Virus record (IMG/VR): IMGVR_UViG_3300028536_000001 | Location: 42,513 to 106,512 of that record | DNA: 64,000 nt | Direction: 5' to 3' (one strand) | DNA from: a virus | Shown here: positions 52,216 through 64,000 of the stretch, one piece after another | How the letters are laid out: each line of letters begins with the position of its first letter | How positions within the stretch are numbered: the first letter of the stretch is position 1 | Made by a program: the position numbers and the translations under genes | The notes under the pieces: generated by a model | Told to the model about the DNA's origin: nothing | The model's database searches: none | Seen by the model: only the letters and a program-made list of their open reading frames with translations

Positions 52216-52767
52216 TCATTGTAGCACAGGTTGAGCGGAATTGCAAATCTTAGATTCCATCCAATCAGCAATTTTTCTGTGTTCCTCGGCTGTACCGTTG
52301 TTCTTTATGCGGTTAGCTCGATAGGACATAACTACAACATTATCCTTGAAATACCCCAATTCAGGTCGAATTCTATCTATACTAGGTGAACCGTCTCTAT
52401 TGCTATCAACACTTCTGGGCTGAAGTTTTATCCCCAAAATTGGACAATATTCAGGGATTATAATATCTTCTTCTTTAAGATCAAAAGGAACATTAAACCT
52501 TTTCGCTCTCTGTTTAGCAGCATAAACTAAATGCCGTTCTAAATACTTGATGTAGCGGGCTTGTTGCTGAGAGATCATTTTCTCTCGATTGTTCTGGTAC
52601 CGTTCAGCCCACCGCTGTTTTGTACGATCCATATTCTTCGCCCGATTAGCCCTGACCTTTTTAACATCACAAGGTTTACAAAGAGAACGAAGACCGTCTT
52701 TCTGGCCCTTATCTTTACTAAAGCACTCAAGCAGCTTTTCTTCACGACATATTCTACAGATTTTCAT
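52216..52767 (-). CDS. HNH endonuclease (free-standing)
   Basis: 183 residues from the ATG after GAGGAAAAT. N-terminal zinc ribbon (CRICREEKLLECFS...LCKPC); C-terminal IIPEYCPILGIKL...SIDRIRPELGYFKDNVVVMSYRANRIK is the phage HNH variant with SIDRI and NV-x-V-x-S-x-RAN. It stands right after the split capsid gene, so it may have driven intron or flank transfer. Confidence 0.85.
   Translation of the reverse strand: MKICRICREEKLLECFSKDKGQKDGLRSLCKPCDVKKVRANRAKNMDRTKQRWAERYQNNREKMISQQQARYIKYLERHLVYAAKQRAKRFNVPFDLKEEDIIIPEYCPILGIKLQPRSVDSNRDGSPSIDRIRPELGYFKDNVVVMSYRANRIKNNGTAEEHRKIADWMESKICNSAQPVLQ
52218..52246 (-). promoter_or_regulatory. Sigma70-like promoter
   Basis: TTGCAA, 17 bp, TACAAT on the - strand, inside the 3' end of the HNH gene. 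Confidence 0.6.
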
Positions 52768-52854
52768 ATTTTCCTCAAGTTGCAGTAGCGGACGCACTTG
52801 AGGGAACGCCCGCCGCCGCATTTAATTGCACCTGATGATCAATCAGATAATTCT

Positions 52855-52925: not shown

Positions 52926-55900
52926 CTAGCTGCTGGAAGTCTCTGATTGCAATCGTCTTATAGTCATTGTTGAACCGGGCATCGTTGTTACTCACCTTGC
53001 GGCGGGATAGATCATTTCTGTCTATCTCTGTATGTCGCCATACAGTCCGGACTATCGCACAACCGCTTGACTGCGGTTTCTTCTCGTTTAGTCTCTTCAG
53101 CCGAAATTATCTTGCTGTTTGTTGTCTCCCAAAGGAGAGGTTCAATTTGATTAGAGAAGATTTATACTGCGCCAAGGTTAACGCAGTGACGTAGTGAACT
53201 TAACATTATAAGCGCACCAACCCGTTTGTTTTCAGCAACTTAGCATCTCTGCTAGTTGGCGCTCACAATCGCTCGTGAGATGAGACTGTATCTTAGCTTT
53301 CGCTTCTATCATGTCAGTCGTTACGGTGCCTTGCGGTTACCTCGGGATTGTCCACTAGGGAGTTTCCCCGATATAGATAGATTTAAAATCGGCAGTTTGA
53401 CGTACCGATCTGTCTTGCTGGATCAGAAACACTACCCTGTTGAGGAGCTTCCTGAATACATTGGATTATTGCGTCTTTGACGACTCTACATGTTTCCAAG
53501 TAGTTTGGACTATATCTTCATCCCAGTAGGATGGCATCGTGTAGTCTCTACGGCTCCCAGTTAGGTTGCCTCGGGGTTACCCTCGCGGGCCTTCACCGAT
53601 ATAGATGTATTTTCAGTTAGCATTGCTGCTAAAAGTGCCTAGTTTCCAGAGCAATTTGTAGTTTCTTTCCAGATATTGTTTAAGTACTTTTAAGTACATT
53701 CTCATAGTTTCTTATGAGGTCGGACTATGTCTTCACTTTCGTGTCTAGCGTATAGTCTCTAAGGATTCCCTTGCGGGTCTTTCCTCGGCGTTACCTTTAC
53801 AGGCGTTCACCGATATAGCTAAATTAAGTGGCAAAAGTCTTTACCACTTTCCGGATTTCTTCCAAGAAAAACGGCGAACAACGCGTCATCTCCGTAGAGA
53901 TAAGTATTATCAGGTTTGTTTTAGGCCGCCAAGCTCACGCGTGGGGCTCTCACTTCATCTCTGAAGTGCTCAGGCTCTATCTTCACTACATGGCTTCCTT
54001 TAGAAGTAGTCGTAGTGTCTTGCGTATTAGTCGTTACAGAACGCCCTTTTTTGTTTAACTCCATCATTTTAAGTCTATAGGGTGCTCTTTTCGCAGGATC
54101 GTTCACGTTGAAAAGAGATTGATAATCCAACATCAATTGTAACTGCTCACACTTAATTTTCATGTAAGGTTTCACGGCTTGTAAGAAATCGTGAATATCT
54201 TGTTTCCGACTGAGAGACCAGAGATAGCAATCTTTGTTCTTTTTGTCTGGAACGATGCGCAGTTGAAGATTTCCACCAAATTTGGCATACAACCAATCGG
54301 TTAGAATTCTGTTGGTATTACCTACTATGACTTTACAACCGTACGTATAGCAAACTACACCTTTACGGTTTTTGTTCTTGACGCGGTATATGCTTATACA
54401 TCCTTCGCAATCCATTGCTGAGGCTGCGTAAGCTGCGTCGTGCGGAGATAAAATATACAAGGGCTTTCCTCGGTATTGTGAGTTATAATATAATACATTA
54501 TAACACATATCCACCGATTTAGCAAGATTTCGTACCAAATTTTTTAGTACGTGTTTCCACCAATAGTAACAGTAGGAGCAGTGGAGGTCTGCTTGAATGT
54601 CGCACCACCAAAGGTGATAACGTCGTCGTTTGAAAGCGGTGCAAGCAGCTTCTCGCGAGTGTCGTCGCCACGTTTGAGGATGTCGGTCAAGCCGTTCCAG
54701 GACTGATCGTTCAACACGTCTCTCACTACGTTAGGATGAATAATCCCTCCGTACTGACCGTTAGGATACAACGGACGTGCGTTTACTGATACTAGGGACT
54801 GAACAGCCGAGCGAATGTTGTTCGCGGTCAAGTAAGTGCCGTTTGCAAGCTGGATGTTTACGCTTGAATCGACGCCCGTTGCGGTGTCAGAGGTGTACTG
54901 AACAAGAGTGTTCAGGGTTAGGGCCAAACGATAGTTTAGCTCTGTTGCCAGGTTGTTTAGAAGACCTGGTTCGTCAATTGCAACATCACAATTATGTTTT
55001 GGATCTTCAGTATCACTACTGAAATCAACTTACATTCACATGTAAGATCGGACTCTATCTTCACCGTAAAGGTGTCCAGCGTATTAGCCTCTGGGGTTCC
55101 CTTTCGGGTTACCTGCTTCTAATCTTGCTGCCAAGAGTTTGAAGCATTTGGCTGGATTTAATGGCACCAGATTTAGTTTAGTGCCAAGTCAGATGCGTTG
55201 ATATAATCGCTGTACTGACCCACGGTCGCGTTAATTTTGGTTGACGATTCGGAAATAGGTGATCCTACTGTACCTTCCAGTTATGTTAACTAATCATCGC
55301 TGAATAGCTCGGACTATATCACCATCCCGAAGGATGTGTATCGTGTAGTCTCTAAGGATTCCCTTGCGGGTCTTTCCTCGGGATTGTCCTCTAGGGAGTT
55401 TCCCCGATATAGATACATTTTCGATTAGCATTACTGCTAAAAGCGCCAAAAGTTTAGCGGCCTGATTTGTGTTAGCAGGCAGAAGAGCGTAGGAGTAGAA
55501 CTGGATGTTATTTCCAGAGTGCATTGGAAGCGGCCACTGTTTAGCCATTCCGAGGACATATTCTTATGGGTCACGTTTGACCGCGCTGCATATTACTATG
55601 CAGATGAGACTATATCATTTGATATCGGCGTGTAGTCGTTACGGATTCCCTTGCGGGTCTTTCCTCGGGATTGTCCTCTAGGGAGTTTCCCCGATATAGC
55701 CAATTTTATTCACCACCTCAATGATGGTGTGTTCGCTTTCAAGTTAGGGCTGTGTGTTTAGGCTGCGTGAACAGCGCACTCGTAATCACTTACGAGAACA
55801 GACTCTATCTTCAAATTGCGTAGTATACTAGACAAATTAGAGAAAATGCTTCTCTTTGACTCGTATATTAGACATTTTGTCTTACGTTATGGTCGTTTCG

Positions 55901-56776
55901 GTGCAAACTCTTAATGACTGTAGCATGTCGTTCACTTCTTTCTTTTTCTCCACCAAATAGGGGATGATAGAAAGAAGAAACCGTTCGGAATTGGTTTCCA
56001 TATCTTCGCTGTGGGGTGTGATTTTATCTGTTATTCCCGTTGCGTCAATTATCCCAGCTTGATAGGCTGCGATCTCTCGTCTGGTCTTCATAGTCTGTGA
56101 AGATTCTGTAAACTCGTCCATTTTCTGGATAACGTACTTTGCGTCATCCTTTTTCTCGAACAAAAAGGGGTAGAGTTCCTTTAATAAAGAGGGAAGTGCT
56201 TTCTCACCGGTCAGTTTCCAGTAGTAGATCTTCTTCTCGTCGTCAGGTACTCGGATGAATACGCCGCCAAAATGAAGTACTAGGAACTTGCAGACTTTAC
56301 GTGTTGTATTTCCTGTATGAACGGAATACTGAATTTTGTGAATTACACCGTCATCTTGACCGATGAAACCACCTGTGTCCAACATTCCCGATAAATAGGC
56401 TAACTTAGACGTTCGTGTCATTTATGAGTTTGTTACCTCCGTCTTGTCTCTTCCATTGTATACCAAAGAGAGATTAACGGATATGGTAAGATTTTAAAGC
56501 AACCATTGTTAAAAAATTGCTTTTCTTTCGTCGTTTTGTTTAAGCTATCAACGTTCCCGTTGATGCGTGCTCGCGATCACTCGCGAGATCAGACTGTATC
56601 TTAGACTGTTGTCTCTGTACGTTTCAGTCGTTAAGGAGCCAATTCGGTTTCCTTGGGATTGTCCACTAGGGAGTTTCCCCAATTTAGTACAGTTACCTAC
56701 CAGAAAGTTAGTAGGTTGCAAGCAGGTTGGGTAGTTGACCCGAAGATACCTGTATGCTAGATGGGGTATAAGCCAT
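52926..56776 (-). CDS. Major capsid protein (N4-gp56-like), 11 exons, 10 group I introns
   Basis: No single frame encodes this protein. Joining exons 56776-56710, 56531-56516, 55749-55724, 55556-55456, 55277-55180, 54988-54546, 53910-53843, 53670-53651, 53458-53404, 53222-53180 and 52990-52926 gives 1002 nt: 333 codons plus TAG. Junction peptides fit the N4-gp56 capsid family: LLATYYERKAIPNLKANTPF, NTNQAAEGTVGS, INASDLALDVAIDEP, GGNTYYNTYLYGDDALF, PESGERNYKLLIQEAP, ARQIGGWCAYNVKF. Each upstream exon ends in U and each intron in G, as group I splicing requires. The gene follows the scaffold-like gene by 32 bases, the usual capsid place. Exact boundaries are predictions, but frame, ends and P1 pairings agree at all ten sites. 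Confidence 0.9.
52991..53179 (-). other. Group I intron 10 of capsid gene (189 nt)
   Basis: P1: ACTGCGTT with GGCGCAGT. P7 GAGACTAAACG / CGATAGTCC. Ends GTGAG before the last exon. No ORF. Confidence 0.8.
53223..53403 (-). other. Group I intron 9 of capsid gene (181 nt)
   Basis: P1: AGATCGGT with GCCGATTT. P7 GACTG / CAGTC, closest to intron 1. No ORF. Confidence 0.85.
53459..53650 (-). other. Group I intron 8 of capsid gene (192 nt)
   Basis: P1: AAATTGCT with GGCACTTT, one mismatch. P7 AGAGACTACACG / AAGATATAGTCC. No ORF. Confidence 0.8.
53671..53842 (-). other. Group I intron 7 of capsid gene (172 nt)
   Basis: P1: AAGTGGT with GCCACTT. P7 GACTA / TAGTC (AGAGACTATACG ... AAGACATAGTCC). 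No ORF. Confidence 0.85.
53921..54460 (-). CDS. LAGLIDADG homing endonuclease in intron 6
   Basis: 179 residues from TTG 54460 (after GAGGAAAG); the frame is open further upstream but that part overlaps the promoter. AAYAASAMDCEGCISIYR is a single LAGLIDADG motif with both acids (D, E), so it likely works as a homodimer. Its last 35 codons are also the intron core. Confidence 0.8.
   Translation of the reverse strand: MYILSPHDAAYAASAMDCEGCISIYRVKNKNRKGVVCYTYGCKVIVGNTNRILTDWLYAKFGGNLQLRIVPDKKNKDCYLWSLSRKQDIHDFLQAVKPYMKIKCEQLQLMLDYQSLFNVNDPAKRAPYRLKMMELNKKGRSVTTNTQDTTTTSKGSHVVKIEPEHFRDEVRAPRVSLAA
54497..54525 (-). promoter_or_regulatory. Promoter inside intron 6
   Basis: TTGCTA, 17 bp, TATAAT on the - strand, 36 bases before the endonuclease start. 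Confidence 0.65.
54989..55179 (-). other. Group I intron 5 of capsid gene (191 nt)
   Basis: P1: TGGCACT with GGTGCCA. P7 of the other type here, GGCTAATACG / AAGATAGAGTCC, as in introns 2 and 6. No ORF. Confidence 0.8.
55278..55455 (-). other. Group I intron 4 of capsid gene (178 nt)
   Basis: P1: CCGCT with GGCGC plus flanking wobble pairs. Core from TATATCGGGG to GGGAATCC is nearly identical to intron 3; P7 GACTA / TAGTC. No ORF of its own, though an exon-4 frame runs into it. Confidence 0.8.
55557..55723 (-). other. Group I intron 3 of capsid gene (167 nt)
   Basis: P1: CACCAT with GTGGTG. Core TATATCGGGGAAACTCCC and P7 GACTA / TAGTC. Among the smallest group I introns; no ORF. Confidence 0.85.
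55882..56421 (-). CDS. LAGLIDADG protein in intron 2, catalytic acids lost
   Basis: 179 residues; GGAGGT upstream of ATG. Two motifs are visible: YLSGMLDTGGFI and YQAGIIDATGIT. In both, the eighth position of LAGLIDADG, which binds metal, is not acidic (Gly and Thr). The fold looks kept, so it may act as a splicing maturase rather than a nuclease. A palindrome copy (QKMD) lies within it. Confidence 0.75.
   Translation of the reverse strand: MTRTSKLAYLSGMLDTGGFIGQDDGVIHKIQYSVHTGNTTRKVCKFLVLHFGGVFIRVPDDEKKIYYWKLTGEKALPSLLKELYPFLFEKKDDAKYVIQKMDEFTESSQTMKTRREIAAYQAGIIDATGITDKITPHSEDMETNSERFLLSIIPYLVEKKKEVNDMLQSLRVCTETTIT
56115..56131. repeat. 17-bp palindrome copy, degenerate
   Basis: CGTCCATTTTCTGGATA, in the intron 2 ORF (codes IQKMD). 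Confidence 0.5.
56532..56709 (-). other. Group I intron 1 of capsid gene (178 nt)
   Basis: P1: exon ACCTACT pairs fully with intron GGTAGGT, ending in U-G. P7 strands GACTG / CAGTC are present with a GGGGAAACTCCC core hairpin. No ORF. Ends in G before ACGAAAG. Confidence 0.85.
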
Positions 56777-56808: not shown

Positions 56809-57960
56809 CTAACGTCCGTTTTTCTGACGATTTAGTCTATAGGTTCTCATTGCCGATTCGACTACATCGTCGGACCAATTGTTAACGTCTTCGTCTGGGA
56901 GCGCCTGTTCTGGAGAGGCAAGGGCTGGTCCGCCCGTAACTCGTATTCCAAAGTTGGCCGCTCGCGTTCTGCCTGCTGGCTGCTGATTATCGACAGGAGG
57001 TACAGCAGGTGCCGGTACAGGCTCCGAAGTTGGAGTCGGTACAGGCGGTTGTGGTTCCGGTACAGGCTTTACAGTCTGGCGCGGAGCCGGTGGTTGAGGC
57101 GCGACTTCCAGCAATTCGCTGGCAAGTAAGTCGTCTTTCGCCTGTTCTAGGTGTTCAACTGTCCATACGCCCCGTTCGAGCAGGTCTATGGTAAGTTGAT
57201 CCATATCTTCGTCTGGCTGAATAGCTCTTCCGAGACTTTTCTTTACCAGATACCGAACTACTGTGTAAAAATTACGCTGTGTTGGGTAGTAGTCGGGATT
57301 TTGCTGAACGAAAGCATTGGCCGCTGCGCTGATATCAGCGAGCTGGTGCGTCAGGGTGACTTCGTTCAATTTCTGTGCGACTTCCTGTGGGGAAAGTCCG
57401 AATCTCTTCTCGTAGTAGTAGTCTTGCGCGGCCACGGGGTTGGATTCAAAAAGTGTTTTGTACTCCCATGCTTCGTCGGCAGTCAGGTCGTGGACGACTA
57501 CTTTCTTAGGCGCGTTAGCCTTGATTGGAACCGAAGTTGCGCTTCCCTCTCCCAGTTTCACCTTGCGGTCAAGTTCTCGGACCCGTTTGGTGGCGTTGCC
57601 TTTTCCAAGCGCTAGGCGGGTAAGCAGTTCGTCCTTTGTCTTACCGTAAAATCTCTCAGGCTGCGTGCCCGGAATGTGTGTGTCTACTTCGGCGTACCAC
57701 TGACCCTTACGTTTGTCAATAGTTACGGTAACGCCGTTTTCATCCGTTATAGTACTTGGCTGCGGTTCGGGTTCTGGAGCAGGTGTTGGTTCTGGAACCG
57801 CCGCTACCGGTTCTGGTACAAGGTCGGAAACCGGTTCTGGAGCAGGCTCGACAAAACCTTCTTCTTGAGCAATGCGAGGAAGTTCCTCGAAATATGTGTT
57901 TGAGTTATCTGCTAGCCGGAAATCTTCATCCAACCAAGGATCAATTGTAGGTGTTGCCAT
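56809..57960 (-). CDS. Scaffold-like protein
   Basis: 383 residues between portal and capsid genes, the usual scaffold place. Acidic N-terminus with Pro/Glu/Val repeats, a central helical region (residues about 120-280), a Pro-rich linker, and a basic C-terminal helix (MRTYRLNRQKNGR) that could bind capsid. No enzyme motif. Confidence 0.65.
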   Translation of the reverse strand: MATPTIDPWLDEDFRLADNSNTYFEELPRIAQEEGFVEPAPEPVSDLVPEPVAAVPEPTPAPEPEPQPSTITDENGVTVTIDKRKGQWYAEVDTHIPGTQPERFYGKTKDELLTRLALGKGNATKRVRELDRKVKLGEGSATSVPIKANAPKKVVVHDLTADEAWEYKTLFESNPVAAQDYYYEKRFGLSPQEVAQKLNEVTLTHQLADISAAANAFVQQNPDYYPTQRNFYTVVRYLVKKSLGRAIQPDEDMDQLTIDLLERGVWTVEHLEQAKDDLLASELLEVAPQPPAPRQTVKPVPEPQPPVPTPTSEPVPAPAVPPVDNQQPAGRTRAANFGIRVTGGPALASPEQALPDEDVNNWSDDVVESAMRTYRLNRQKNGR

Positions 57961-58406: not shown

Positions 58407-58435
58407 ATTATACCACAAGTCTTAGCTATTGTCCA
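58407..58435 (-). promoter_or_regulatory. Sigma70-like promoter
   Basis: TGGACA, 17 bp, TATAAT on the - strand, overlapping the portal gene end. Confidence 0.7.
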
Positions 58436-60504
58436 CCAAAACCAGCGTTTCCAGGTTCTCCGGTTATGGCTTCCGTCGATCCAGAAGTTTCGATTGCGTG
58501 CCTAATGATGTCGCGCCCAGCTCTCGCGTAATTTTCTTGGTCCAATTCAGCGGCTTTGGACTGTTCTTTCTGAATTTGCGCTTGTTGCTGCGCTTGAATC
58601 TTTTGCTGATTCAAAGCGGCTGGACTATTCTGCTGTGCTCTTTGTACTTCCTGCTCCGACATAGGAACCACTACAGAGTAGTATTCATCAGACATTTCGG
58701 CGGCTTCGAAGAAGAGGTGCAAGAACTCGTCTACATCCAATTTCTTTTGCTGTGCTTCTAACTGCTGAAGCACAAACTGATTGGTCATGAAATTCGTTAG
58801 TACTGGTAGCGCCTGAGCCAAGTTACGTCTGACTGACATCTTTGCGCCAGCCAAGATACTGAACTTAACAACAGCGTTCAATAACTCAATGATATCGCCT
58901 TTGTTCTTGAAATACGCGCTCTGAAGTTCTTCGTTCAGAATCCGTTTAATTTCCTTTACCGGAAGTAGACCGCGATTCATTTCATGAACGTTGTATAGAA
59001 ACGGCGTGATAACCTGATCGGCTAGCCTATCTACAAAATCTGCTGGTCTGTTACCTGCTCCTGCGCCGAGCAAGTTCGCTCCCGCGGCGGTGCGAGCTAG
59101 GTTGGAGTGCCCGGATGATCCGGCTATTCCTTGCGAGGACATTTCGTTTACACCAGAAATTTGTCCTACGCGAGATTCAGATAATCCTAAGTGCTGGAAG
59201 GCTTCTGGAATACTCGGGGTGCGATTCAAAGGCTGGATGTCGTCCTTATTTTCGACATCGATCATGCGGCCAGGTGCAATACGGATACTCTGGGTTGGGA
59301 TCGACTTCCCGCGTACTCGTGTAAACACACCCTGAAGATTCAGGGCCATGTTATCGAGCGATGTATTTGTTACACCTTGCTGCAAGCGCTGTTCTGCACC
59401 GAGCAGCTTTCCGAGACCCATACCCCAAAAAGCTTCTGGTACGTCCACAAAATTTACCGAGAAGAAAGGAATTACCCCGTATGGATTATCTCCGTTACAG
59501 ATAACAAGTTTCTTTTGTAGAACTACGTAGCATTTCTCGTTATCCCAGCGTTCCAAAACTTCAAGCGGTTCGTTGAAGGGGTCGATGGTCGCGTCTTCCC
59601 AGCGAGGTTCTGCGCGAAAATCCCATAGCGGGTTCTTAGCGGTCAGTTCCTGTGGGGCTGGATCTGCCAATTCCCTTGGCGGCATGAATAGTTGCAGTAG
59701 TTCAGCCTTAGAAGGGATCTTCCAACCGGGTTGATCCTTCATCTTGACAAGATCATCGTAGGTCATATATATGCGGTGAATAACAAACTTCGCTTCGCGT
59801 ATATCTGGAACATCTAGGGTTGAATCTACGAGAACGTGTCGTGGGCTTGTAATGTGATCAAAAAACGGACGCTCTACGTTGATTTCAATATCGCGTGAAA
59901 CGATATCTTCGTCGTCCGGTTCAATATCAATATCCGGAGCGCCGGGAACTCCGGATGGGATAGATACGTTCGATCCAGATCGTTCCCAAATCGTACGTTT
60001 CTTTTTGTAAGATTCCCAGCCCCATTTCCAAATCGCAGTACCGTACAACGCGGCGCTTGCTATTCCCCAACGAAGAGTTCGTTTGAACTTGATATCTTCG
60101 AGTTGGAAACCAAGTATCTCACCAACTGCCCTAGAGGCGTCTGCGGTGGTTCCAGGTTTTGCCTGAACTATAAAGGGAGGATTCTCATAGAACAAACCAT
60201 TTACAATTTGGGGAGTAACCGCAGTCACGGTGGTGGCTACGGTGTAGAAAGGAATGTTAGCACGAGGTACAGAAGTCCCTTCCCAACAAATCGTACTGGC
60301 TGGTGACACAAATAAGGTCGCTGACTGCGCCCAACCAGTGATCCAAGCTTTGGTAGAAGAGAAATTTTCAGCCTTAATGGAATCCTGAATGACAATTTTT
60401 AATACCACATCATCGTCAAAAGATCCAGTAACCCTAGCATGCTCTGCTTGAGCAGGAGTGATAGGAAGTTGCGGTGATGATGCGGGCTGATCTAAGAGAG
60501 CCAA
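58426..60504 (-). CDS. Portal protein
   Basis: 692 residues. WAQSATLFVSPASTICWEG, LRWGIASAALYGTAIWKWGW, HITSPRHVLVDSTLD, YGVIPFFSVNFVDVPEAFWGMG, and a Gln-rich coiled C-terminus match podovirus-type portals. It lies between terminase and capsid genes. It would form the dodecameric DNA gate. Confidence 0.85.
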   Translation of the reverse strand: MALLDQPASSPQLPITPAQAEHARVTGSFDDDVVLKIVIQDSIKAENFSSTKAWITGWAQSATLFVSPASTICWEGTSVPRANIPFYTVATTVTAVTPQIVNGLFYENPPFIVQAKPGTTADASRAVGEILGFQLEDIKFKRTLRWGIASAALYGTAIWKWGWESYKKKRTIWERSGSNVSIPSGVPGAPDIDIEPDDEDIVSRDIEINVERPFFDHITSPRHVLVDSTLDVPDIREAKFVIHRIYMTYDDLVKMKDQPGWKIPSKAELLQLFMPPRELADPAPQELTAKNPLWDFRAEPRWEDATIDPFNEPLEVLERWDNEKCYVVLQKKLVICNGDNPYGVIPFFSVNFVDVPEAFWGMGLGKLLGAEQRLQQGVTNTSLDNMALNLQGVFTRVRGKSIPTQSIRIAPGRMIDVENKDDIQPLNRTPSIPEAFQHLGLSESRVGQISGVNEMSSQGIAGSSGHSNLARTAAGANLLGAGAGNRPADFVDRLADQVITPFLYNVHEMNRGLLPVKEIKRILNEELQSAYFKNKGDIIELLNAVVKFSILAGAKMSVRRNLAQALPVLTNFMTNQFVLQQLEAQQKKLDVDEFLHLFFEAAEMSDEYYSVVVPMSEQEVQRAQQNSPAALNQQKIQAQQQAQIQKEQSKAAELDQENYARAGRDIIRHAIETSGSTEAITGEPGNAGFGGQ

Positions 60505-60507
60505 GAA

Positions 60508-61296
60508 TTATCCTATGTTATCTGATTTACTCATGTTTTCACTGAACCACAAAGGTTGCATATTACCCCAGTGGCAGGCGAGTAAGACGTGCTGTCTGTT
60601 TGTTAGATCAAAAGCCTTCATAGGCATGATATGATCTATAGTCCATTTATCTAAACCATGACCATAGTTTCCCCAAGTCATTCCGGGTTTAAATTTTGAT
60701 TCAAGATACCGTTTAAATTCAACTACTGTACAGCCAAGGTCCCTGACCGCTGAACCGCCTTTAAATCCACGTTGAATAGCACTTCTTAAACGGCGACGAA
60801 GATTATCGGTTAATTTTAACTGGATATTTTCTTTGCGACGTTCGTTAGCCTTGGCGCTGAGAATTTCTCGATATTCAGTGCGATATATCTTATTAACTAC
60901 AAGCAGTTCTTCTCTATTTTTCTCGTAATACTTTTTAGAGAAACCTTTTTCTCTTGCGTAATTGCTCCTGCAATTTTTACACTTACTGTCGTAGCCTGAC
61001 TTTATGTGACGATTACGAACAAATTTCTCAAAAAGAAGTTCTTGACGACATTTTGTGCAGACCTTCGTCGTTCTTAACTTTTCCTCTTGTTCACGTACCG
61101 CACGCGCGGCTGCTTTTCTAATCCGCTTTCTTTGGCTATTGTAGGCAATGATCGCGACTCTATTTTTAAGATAGTATTCTCTGTGACAATCTCGACAGTT
61201 CGCGCTGTACCCGTTTTGTCGACTTCTGTTGGTGTAAAACATACTAACAGATAGGTCCCGTTTACAGTGCGAACAGTGTAGTGATTTTTCTTCCAT
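60508..61296 (-). CDS. HNH endonuclease (free-standing)
   Basis: 262 residues. Two zinc ribbons (CSHCKRDLSVSMFY...CRDC and CTKCRQELLFEKF...CKNC) and an HNH core (WTIDHIMPMKAFDL...NMQPLWFSENMSK). Inserted between the portal and the gene at 61396, with its own perfect promoter. Confidence 0.9.
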   Translation of the reverse strand: MEEKSLHCSHCKRDLSVSMFYTNRSRQNGYSANCRDCHREYYLKNRVAIIAYNSQRKRIRKAAARAVREQEEKLRTTKVCTKCRQELLFEKFVRNRHIKSGYDSKCKNCRSNYAREKGFSKKYYEKNREELLVVNKIYRTEYREILSAKANERRKENIQLKLTDNLRRRLRSAIQRGFKGGSAVRDLGCTVVEFKRYLESKFKPGMTWGNYGHGLDKWTIDHIMPMKAFDLTNRQHVLLACHWGNMQPLWFSENMSKSDNIG

Positions 61297-61762: not shown

Positions 61763-64000
61763 TTAACCTATCAAGCCGCCGCCCAAAATGTTATCAAGGC
61801 CGGGAGCGTACGTTTGAGACAAAATGTCCTCAGAAATTTTTGGTTCATCGAAAACGTGAGTAAATACTCCACCTTGTCCGGGTCTGCCCCACGGATCACA
61901 GTTTTCTTCAAATATTAAATTGTATGCAGCTCGTTCTTTCGTCCAGCCTGTCCAACTTGGAATTCCCTGTTCGATAACCTTCATCGACATTCTAGGGGCA
62001 TATCTCGGCTGGTAGGATAGTGCATCAGGAATATCATTTTTCGTCTGCCTAGTACCTTGGCAGCGAATAAACTCGTCGTAGACTATCTGGCGAAACGGAA
62101 TATGGTACGCAAACTTGAACAAGCCGTATTCCATCAACGGTTGGAGGGCGGCCATGCGAATGCGTTTCGCGTCGTTCTGTGTATCCGGTTTGATCCAATC
62201 GATTTTGGTGCAAACTTGAATCACATACGGATCGTTTGTCTTCAGCGCCTCTGCTTCAATCGTTGGGCCAAGCAGGTTAGATCCACCCGCATCTTCAATT
62301 CCAATTACGTACGGATGGTGCTTGCGGGCAAACTCTACAATCGCCTTTGCCTGCGCTAAAGGAGTTATAAATCTATCGCGGATAAGGTCGTTCGTGTATC
62401 CGACGCCTTTTTCATCCCATATAACCGAAGTGCCGACTGTAAAATCTCTGTATTTCTTCTTGCTGAACGCAAAATCCCACGTGTGGGAAATCGGACCCCT
62501 GTGCGGCATTTCGGTAAAAGGAACTGTGCTTCTTAAAAGCAGGGGAAGGTCGAAAACTGCTTCTTGTTCGGGTAGAGGGTTCTGATTCATCTGACCTTCA
62601 AATGAACCATCTTCCATTTTTCCTTGACGATCTTCGTTATACATGACCATCAAAGATGAATAGTCAAGTACTTTCGGCATCACAAAGATGCAACCCTCTT
62701 CTCCAGCTTCTTTGTAAAAATCAACGGGAGGTATACCCTTTTTTACTAATGCTTCGCGAACTTCAGGTTTAACCTGCATCGCTCTGCCAACCAATATCAA
62801 ACTCTTGTTGGCTGGATTTTCAGTCAGTTCCCACCCAAGACCGGAAGTTGTTTTTAGGCTACCAACATTGCTGGAAATTTCAGCCCCATAAATATCCGAA
62901 TTCTTTGAGCAGCATCCATCTGCAATGTAATTACCTGTTTCGGTCTGGAAAAAGTATACGGATTGTTCGCCGCAAGGTTCAATCGATACAAGTTTGTCTT
63001 CTTTGGTAAACAATTGACCAAAAAGACTTTCTGATATTTTTGTAGACCTAATTGGTGATACTTCTCGCAGGAATCTATACCGTTCAGGCCAACCTCCGAG
63101 TATGGTAAATTGACATTTGTCTTTCCAGTGCTCTTGTCCGTATTTGCCCTTGCTCGGTTCGCTCCAGTTTTCGTGAAACTCAAAACCGAGGTTGCTAAGA
63201 ACTTCTCGTATTTTATTAAGTACATTGGGGTTATGTTTGGTTTGTGCAATAGATATAACACCGCTCGGATAACCCGGATTTCCTCCAAATGATCCTTCAC
63301 CGTCATATATACCGGATAACCAAGACGCTTCCCACGAGTTATTCCTATCTTTGGGGATCAGCAATCTACGGACGGAAGCTAACTTACCGTAAGAAAATGA
63401 AAGAATATTATATCCTTCGTCCTTATTAGCGTTGACACTTCCCTTACCACCCCACCATTTGTGAGTTTCAGTAGCTACGACGCTTCTTCCAGATTCAAAC
63501 GTGTACTTAAATACCGGACGAGAATCGTGCTTACCGGTGGCTAGCACTTTAGAAGGAGTAAGAAATCTTTTATGTCCTTTTCCGTTACGGTTAGTCTTAA
63601 AAGACCACCCTACCAGACTGTCGCCCTCAGTTATATCTTCTATAGGCTTTTGTGACCAATCTGCCATTAAGATAGGAGTTCCAGCGACTAGACAGTCGTT
63701 ATATCTTGTTCCTATTTTTATCGCGTATCCCCACTTACGCAGCATCTTTTTATTGATACGGTAATTTTTACCTACCTTCATACACTGATCTTCGTTTTCA
63801 GAGTTTAGGTTGGATACCATATCATCGCCAACCAGAAGTTCAAAGTGGAATCCGGAAAGCGTGGACTCGATAGACGAAGCCATGATGGTTGGTTCTGGTC
63901 GTCTTACTTCTTTGGCTGCCCAAACTGGACAAGTGAACTCAAACTGATTGCCTAGATTTTTTTCTTCTACGCAAAATTCAGGAAAGAAAAGATTCATTAG
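61763..64000 (-). CDS. terL: Terminase large subunit, partial, with intein
   Basis: The gene runs off the right edge; the frame is still open at 64000, so the Met at 63997 is internal and Walker A lies outside. Walker B is seen in LLVGDDMV. Extein GTRYND, interrupted by the intein, resumes as SDIYG, giving the conserved GTRYNDSDIYG. The nuclease domain shows TWDFAFSKKKYRDFTVG, VIGIEDAGGS and KNDIPDALS, three acidic RNase H-like positions. It packages and cuts phage DNA. Confidence 0.9.
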   Translation of the reverse strand, partial: LMNLFFPEFCVEEKNLGNQFEFTCPVWAAKEVRRPEPTIMASSIESTLSGFHFELLVGDDMVSNLNSENEDQCMKVGKNYRINKKMLRKWGYAIKIGTRYNDCLVAGTPILMADWSQKPIEDITEGDSLVGWSFKTNRNGKGHKRFLTPSKVLATGKHDSRPVFKYTFESGRSVVATETHKWWGGKGSVNANKDEGYNILSFSYGKLASVRRLLIPKDRNNSWEASWLSGIYDGEGSFGGNPGYPSGVISIAQTKHNPNVLNKIREVLSNLGFEFHENWSEPSKGKYGQEHWKDKCQFTILGGWPERYRFLREVSPIRSTKISESLFGQLFTKEDKLVSIEPCGEQSVYFFQTETGNYIADGCCSKNSDIYGAEISSNVGSLKTTSGLGWELTENPANKSLILVGRAMQVKPEVREALVKKGIPPVDFYKEAGEEGCIFVMPKVLDYSSLMVMYNEDRQGKMEDGSFEGQMNQNPLPEQEAVFDLPLLLRSTVPFTEMPHRGPISHTWDFAFSKKKYRDFTVGTSVIWDEKGVGYTNDLIRDRFITPLAQAKAIVEFARKHHPYVIGIEDAGGSNLLGPTIEAEALKTNDPYVIQVCTKIDWIKPDTQNDAKRIRMAALQPLMEYGLFKFAYHIPFRQIVYDEFIRCQGTRQTKNDIPDALSYQPRYAPRMSMKVIEQGIPSWTGWTKERAAYNLIFEENCDPWGRPGQGGVFTHVFDEPKISEDILSQTYAPGLDNILGGGLIG
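62900..63694 (-). other. Intein in TerL with LAGLIDADG endonuclease
   Basis: 265 residues from Cys (CLVAGTPIL, block A) to Asn followed by extein Ser. Block B is VVATETHKW; a homing endonuclease motif WLSGIYDGEGSF has both acids; the end GNYIADGCCSKN carries Lys where His is usual before Asn. Removing it restores the conserved terminase motif. Confidence 0.9.

Follow-up and report, generated by a model that had tools for sequence, protein, structure and literature searches.

How can a phage make its head protein from a major-capsid gene that is cut into eleven pieces? The question is raised by a stretch of 64,000 nucleotides (nt), hereafter the window, which comprises bases 42513–106512 of the linear virus record IMGVR_UViG_3300028536_000001 (106,512 bases), a metagenomic contig. 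The capsid-coding pieces lie on the minus strand, between positions 52926 and 56776 of the window. Introns are thought to be scarce in phages, and head protein is needed in huge amounts. We consider it very probable, at roughly 0.92, that the gene works, that its pre-mRNA contains ten group I ribozymes, and that these introns are mobile elements parasitic on this one gene.

The splice map was obtained with a home-written spliced dynamic-programming alignment of the window to a profile of 11 intact capsid relatives. The relatives came from a search with the largest exon, which returned 62 loci, several having intact capsid genes; the closest intact relative (L010) is intronless and shows 79% identity over that exon. 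The alignment covered the whole profile with 11 exons and 10 introns, ending in a stop codon, and scored 518, as compared with at most 18 in 20 shuffled copies and 13 for the reverse complement. All ten introns had a T (U in the RNA) just before them and G as their last base; when this rule was removed the same exons were recovered, with four junctions moving by 1 nt, where the protein alone does not decide. The exons total 990 nt, or 329 codons plus the stop, are free of lesions and join in phase at all ten junctions. A preliminary description of this DNA had claimed the same pieces, order, strand, frames and splice sites, as well as in-phase junctions, and in all of this it agrees with the spliced alignment, although its frame of 333 codons (1002 nt) was slightly too long. 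The two junction peptides that it named, QAAEGT and ESGERN, are both present in the predicted spliced product.

The features are listed below with their support in brackets, where R1 and R2 are covariance models built from the relatives' introns only (their E-values are rough), L059 is a contig about 95% identical to the window, and ORF stands for open reading frame.

56710–56776, minus strand: exon 1, 67 nt, ATG at 56776 (spliced alignment)
56532–56709, minus strand: intron 1, group I, 178 nt, without ORF (Rfam, spliced alignment, R2; site empty in L059)
56516–56531, minus strand: exon 2, 16 nt (spliced alignment, comparison of relatives)
55750–56515, minus strand: intron 2, group I, 766 nt, with a LAGLIDADG-type ORF inside (Rfam, spliced alignment, R2; site empty in L059)
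55882–56421, minus strand: LAGLIDADG-like ORF of intron 2, 179 amino acids, motifs LSGMLDTGG and AGIIDATGI, neither with the catalytic acid
55724–55749, minus strand: exon 3, 26 nt (spliced alignment, comparison of relatives)
55557–55723, minus strand: intron 3, group I, 167 nt (Rfam, spliced alignment, R2; site empty in L059)
55456–55556, minus strand: exon 4, 101 nt (spliced alignment)
55278–55455, minus strand: intron 4, group I, 178 nt (Rfam, spliced alignment, R1, R2)
55180–55277, minus strand: exon 5, 98 nt (spliced alignment)
54989–55179, minus strand: intron 5, group I, 191 nt (Rfam, spliced alignment, R2; site empty in L059)
54546–54988, minus strand: exon 6, 443 nt, the largest exon (spliced alignment)
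53911–54545, minus strand: intron 6, group I, 635 nt, with a LAGLIDADG-type ORF inside (Rfam, spliced alignment, R2)
53921–54538, minus strand: LAGLIDADG-like ORF of intron 6, 205 amino acids, one motif, AASAMDCEG, acidic residue retained
53843–53910, minus strand: exon 7, 68 nt (spliced alignment)
53670–53842, minus strand: intron 7, group I, 173 nt (Rfam, spliced alignment, R2)
53650–53669, minus strand: exon 8, 20 nt (spliced alignment)
53459–53649, minus strand: intron 8, group I, 191 nt (Rfam, spliced alignment, R1, R2)
53404–53458, minus strand: exon 9, 55 nt (spliced alignment)
53223–53403, minus strand: intron 9, group I, 181 nt (Rfam, spliced alignment, R2; the covariance-model match has the same two ends)
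53181–53222, minus strand: exon 10, 42 nt (spliced alignment)
52980–53180, minus strand: intron 10, group I, 201 nt (Rfam, spliced alignment, R1, R2)
52926–52979, minus strand: exon 11, 54 nt, stop codon TAG included (spliced alignment)

When the whole window was scanned with all Rfam families, only Intron_gpI (RF00028) was returned, on the minus strand only and in the capsid region only, with four matches above the curated threshold. A local search gave nine Intron_gpI matches, the weakest at E = 0.03; the preliminary description had expected ten, and although that number was not reached, one match spans introns 4 and 5, and all ten introns are covered. R2 matched all ten at E ≤ 5e-6, in twelve matches since the ORFs of introns 2 and 6 break up the matches there, and R1 matched the eight ORF-less introns, which are only 167–201 nt long; neither model matched outside the ten introns in the 64-kb window. 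Several of the match ends fell exactly at the protein-derived splice sites, the others being off by a few to about twenty bases.

A P1 helix of 4–8 bp, in which the U at the exon end pairs with a G of the guide sequence, was found at 10/10 sites, as the preliminary description had proposed. Over 135 introns of the clade the mean P1 score was 12.1, as compared with 6.1 after swapping flanks between introns. In a model-fitted alignment, which is favourably biased, 89.6% of the 45 modelled pairs were standard over 137 distinct rows (33–45% with one side slid), and the covariation score was 0.47 as compared with 0.04–0.08, with double changes in 44 pairs. A plain MAFFT alignment of ten introns gave a compensatory change in 24 of the 45 pairs and, together with the fitted one, supports covarying core helices of the P3–P9 region; applied to all 70 small introns together, MAFFT produced a poor alignment, and the two classes were therefore aligned separately. 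The P7 motif GAUA(N)AGUC and its partner are present in most introns, P7 lying outside the fitted structure.

Some observations weigh against this interpretation. By eye, the P7 end pair of intron 2 is weak and the P7 of intron 6 has an A.C pair, an arrangement likewise present in three relatives' introns; these two long introns yield split, weaker model matches only; the sequence is a linear metagenomic contig; and L059 looks strain-mixed, for which reason only its local sequence was used, never the whole gene. Group I introns, which the preliminary description had invoked, are nonetheless the sole reading that fits the protein splice map, the RNA models, the P1 pairing and the intron-free relatives, and the sequence evidence supports the presence of ten of them in one major-capsid gene. 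Separately, among the type-B introns (alignment A2), one P7 position is G.U in some and A.C in others (GGCU/AGUC versus GACU/AGCC), by eye an isosteric swap that window intron 6 shows as well.

From this structure we infer that the ten introns self-splice in the cell. The internal guide of each ribozyme would base-pair with the last bases of the preceding exon (P1, with its U.G pair), and the ribozyme would cut after that U using a guanosine cofactor; a second cut after the terminal G of the intron would allow the exons to be joined, and once all ten ribozymes were done the mRNA would hold a single 329-codon frame. In 55 of 132 clade introns an in-frame stop codon occurs within three codons past the 5' splice site, as compared with 57 of 260 for the two remaining frames, an excess that would be expected if ribosomes were excluded from the ribozymes. 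In the window, the start of intron 1 forms an in-frame TAA with the last base of the preceding exon.

We then compared the introns across the clade, using the spliced alignment with a raised penalty and a minimum length that avoid false tiny exons inside introns; three loci (L057, L062 and L063) retain doubtful exons of 7–32 nt and the clade counts are approximate. There are 72 distinct genes including that of the window, of which 59 are complete: 24 are intronless, the others have 1–8 introns, and the window alone has 10. Altogether, introns occupy about 48 insertion sites. At four of them (21.1, 54.1, 87.2 and 188.1) some introns have an ORF and others have none, as expected from endonuclease loss. 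Coding sequences that are 95–97% identical differ in their introns, L060 and L061 by one, L061 and L066 by six, and L125 and L129 by five. From intronless members up to the window with its ten introns, the clade forms a natural series for a single gene, in which a lone intron can separate nearly identical strains; homing, endonuclease-gene loss and the colonisation of new sites are thereby open to direct testing.

L059 has no intron at the sites of introns 1, 2, 3 and 5, and its exons are joined there exactly as predicted. Exons 2–4 of the two are only 77% identical, with nearly all differences synonymous, as compared with 98% identity in exon 1. A divergent block with such abrupt edges next to the insertions fits co-conversion of the exon flanks during homing, a known accompaniment of that process (reviewed in PMC3984707). 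LAGLIDADG-bearing introns would home into intron-free alleles as DNA, carrying flanking exon sequence along, and would later lose the endonuclease gene. The capsid locus of L059 (L059:3415–5974) also has an extra LAGLIDADG intron of about 1000 nt at codon 119, carries the endonuclease gene of intron 2 behind the codon-54 splice site and lacks amino acids 55–68; the missing residues suggest that this contig may mix strains.

Across 70 loci, 848 kb in all, the R2 matches cluster inside the capsid gene, as they do in 20 further whole records, where the family was found in no other gene; it therefore seems to be specialised on this gene alone. Within the window, introns 1, 3, 4, 7, 8 and 9 closely match one another despite their different sites. 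About 58 bases in P4–P6 are identical between introns 3 and 4, which diverge abruptly outside, and a 30-base core tract has three copies in this phage and is absent from all others of the 2.9 million viral contigs scanned. Without forming one clade, the introns of the window group together on the tree more than expected by chance (5 changes versus 7.7 when shuffled; 1/500 as low). Core tracts unique to this phage suggest that the introns multiplied or exchanged core sequence within the capsid gene, and the patchy likeness speaks for conversion from one intron to another no less than for the transposition of entire introns.

A rival account of this spread, and of this spread only, holds that similar introns came solely by independent homing from other phages, their likeness being due to ribozyme constraint. 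It draws on the best match lying at the same site in another phage for 71 of 135 clade introns, and on site labels changing less than phage labels on the tree (21 versus 36). We regard it as rather unlikely, given the six introns that closely match other sites of the same gene, the identical tract of introns 3 and 4 amid dissimilar flanks, the core tract present thrice here, and the clustering on the tree. Spread within the gene, by introns multiplying or swapping core sequence among its sites, would account better for these observations; for moves of group I introns to new sites through reverse splicing, the support is circumstantial only (PMC3984707).

The LAGLIDADG catalytic acids were incompletely retained in the intron ORFs, both being absent from that of intron 2 and one being kept in that of intron 6, whose 3' end runs into the ribozyme core. 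Pfam gave only a weak match to the window's intron ORFs and nothing useful for that of intron 2, while the relatives' intron ORFs clearly match LAGLIDADG_1. The intron 2 ORF and its L059 copy differ by 8 synonymous and 2 nonsynonymous codons, and this low nonsynonymous change suggests that the ORF retains a function despite the absent acids. An intron at the same site in L101 (L101:7094–7972, plus strand) encodes a two-motif LAGLIDADG protein with both catalytic acids, of which window intron 2 may be the decayed counterpart. We tentatively propose, at rather less than even odds, a capsid-only intron lineage that multiplies inside the gene, through new sites and core conversion, and has given phages their most intron-dense known protein gene, the acid-less LAGLIDADG protein, under purifying selection, perhaps now being a maturase.

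Is the interrupted gene still in use? The spliced protein matched PHROG 1357 (major head protein) with 64.7 bits (E = 1.4e-17), as compared with 19.5 bits for the largest exon alone, and TIGR04387, the N4-gp56 type, matched the intact relatives with 43–53 bits, under its 60-bit cut-off. A Pfam search with the capsid gave nothing useful, and the region had no megablast match among 50,697 phage records. An AlphaFold model of an intact relative's capsid had a mean predicted local distance difference test score of 30.5 and was left unused. The gene has the usual position in a head module on the minus strand, after the terminase (61763–63997) and the portal (58426–60504), both identified by profile, and a 383-amino-acid ORF (56809–57960) in the usual place of the scaffold gene. 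In comparison with intronless L010, the small exons have a proportion of synonymous differences (pS) of 0.82 and of nonsynonymous differences (pN) of 0.13, pN being 0.15 in the large exon. On this comparison purifying selection acts on the short exons, down to those of 16 and 20 nt.

These values bear on the possibility that the gene is a decaying pseudogene, the head protein being supplied by a helper phage or by another, intact gene copy. Ten insertions could plausibly break a gene, and the record, being linear, may be incomplete. However, the small exons are constrained like the large one, the exons are lesion-free with every junction in phase, P1 is retained at every site, and many relatives hold 3–8 introns with intact exons. 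A second intact capsid gene, which the preliminary description had named as the finding that would overturn its view, was not found in the 106,512-base record, from which, as it is linear, a piece may be missing. We consider decay improbable and a working, spliced gene the far better explanation.

Still less credible is an assembly artefact in which strains or repeats were stitched together. Near-identical tracts do occur among the window introns, and L059, from another sample, looks chimeric; however, the shared tracts are of about 60 nt, below typical read length, and stitching would not yield exons in phase, in order and obeying splice-site rules. In addition, the separately listed contig L009 has identical ten introns and a single mismatch in 16 kb, although it possibly derives from the same phage population or reads. 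Equally improbable is that the insertions are real and the fragments are translated separately or assembled as proteins with no splicing, since, even though split proteins occur in phages and exon 6 alone is a 127-amino-acid ORF, exons of 16, 20 and 26 nt are too short for separate proteins, the inserts are complete, covarying ribozyme structures, and in-frame stops are in excess past the 5' splice sites.

Single genes loaded with group I introns are known elsewhere. The cox1 genes of fungal mitochondria carry numerous mobile introns of this kind, whose LAGLIDADG ORFs in some cases also act as maturases, and resemble the present gene in their intron load and in having such ORFs, although they are organelle genes, not viral, and their introns are much longer. 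Among viruses, the capsid gene of Faustovirus E12, a giant virus of amoeba, has 12 introns, 5 of them group I and the rest spliceosome-like, with a mean of 1,273 bp (PMC6247863); very short exons (13 nt) and homing endonuclease ORFs in introns are common ground, but that virus is eukaryotic and its introns are long and of mixed kinds, while all ten here are group I and mostly short.

In crAss-like phages of the Zeta group the capsid gene is in five fragments, three of the four gaps having intron-type domains, and a genome can hold as many as 14 introns (Yutin et al. 2021, PMC7886860). That intron-rich group likewise has a major capsid gene divided by several group I introns, but its introns lie in many genes, in contrast to ten in one gene here and none found elsewhere in the genome. 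Jug phages also have many short group I introns (about 206 nt), and metatranscriptomes support the splicing of 37 of 76 (PMC12363816), but these are distributed over many genes of 360–402-kb genomes, with terL in 2–3 fragments. Polymerase and terminase genes of Bastillevirinae have up to three introns per gene, with a mean of about 800 nt (PMC11878797), and a title cited there (its reference 34) gives three introns for orf142 of Twort; going by that title and paper, these genes have at most three introns, as compared with ten, mostly of 167–201 nt, in the present one. In the open-access literature we found no phage gene with more introns, and no description of a 990-nt phage gene with ten introns of group I or of a clade-wide, gene-tied intron family. 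The preliminary description had called ten introns exceptional, and the published phage genes that we located do carry fewer, so that within this literature the gene is the extreme case. Removing ten ribozymes from around exons of 16–26 nt in a head-protein message would test the accuracy and speed of group I splicing in a bacterium, and such a structure explains why ordinary gene calling misses these capsid genes.

The terminase large-subunit ORF (61763–63997, minus strand) has an apparent in-frame intein, with a LAGLIDADG_3 domain between terminase parts, and endonuclease VII/HNH-like ORFs at 52216–52821 and 60508–61296, both on the minus strand, flank the head genes as possible free-standing homing endonucleases. 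Finally, the only capsid relatives in bacterial genomes, L137 and L138, are in metagenome-assembled genomes of Ca. Sulfotelmatobacter and another acidobacterium, a weak hint that the host may belong to the Acidobacteriota.

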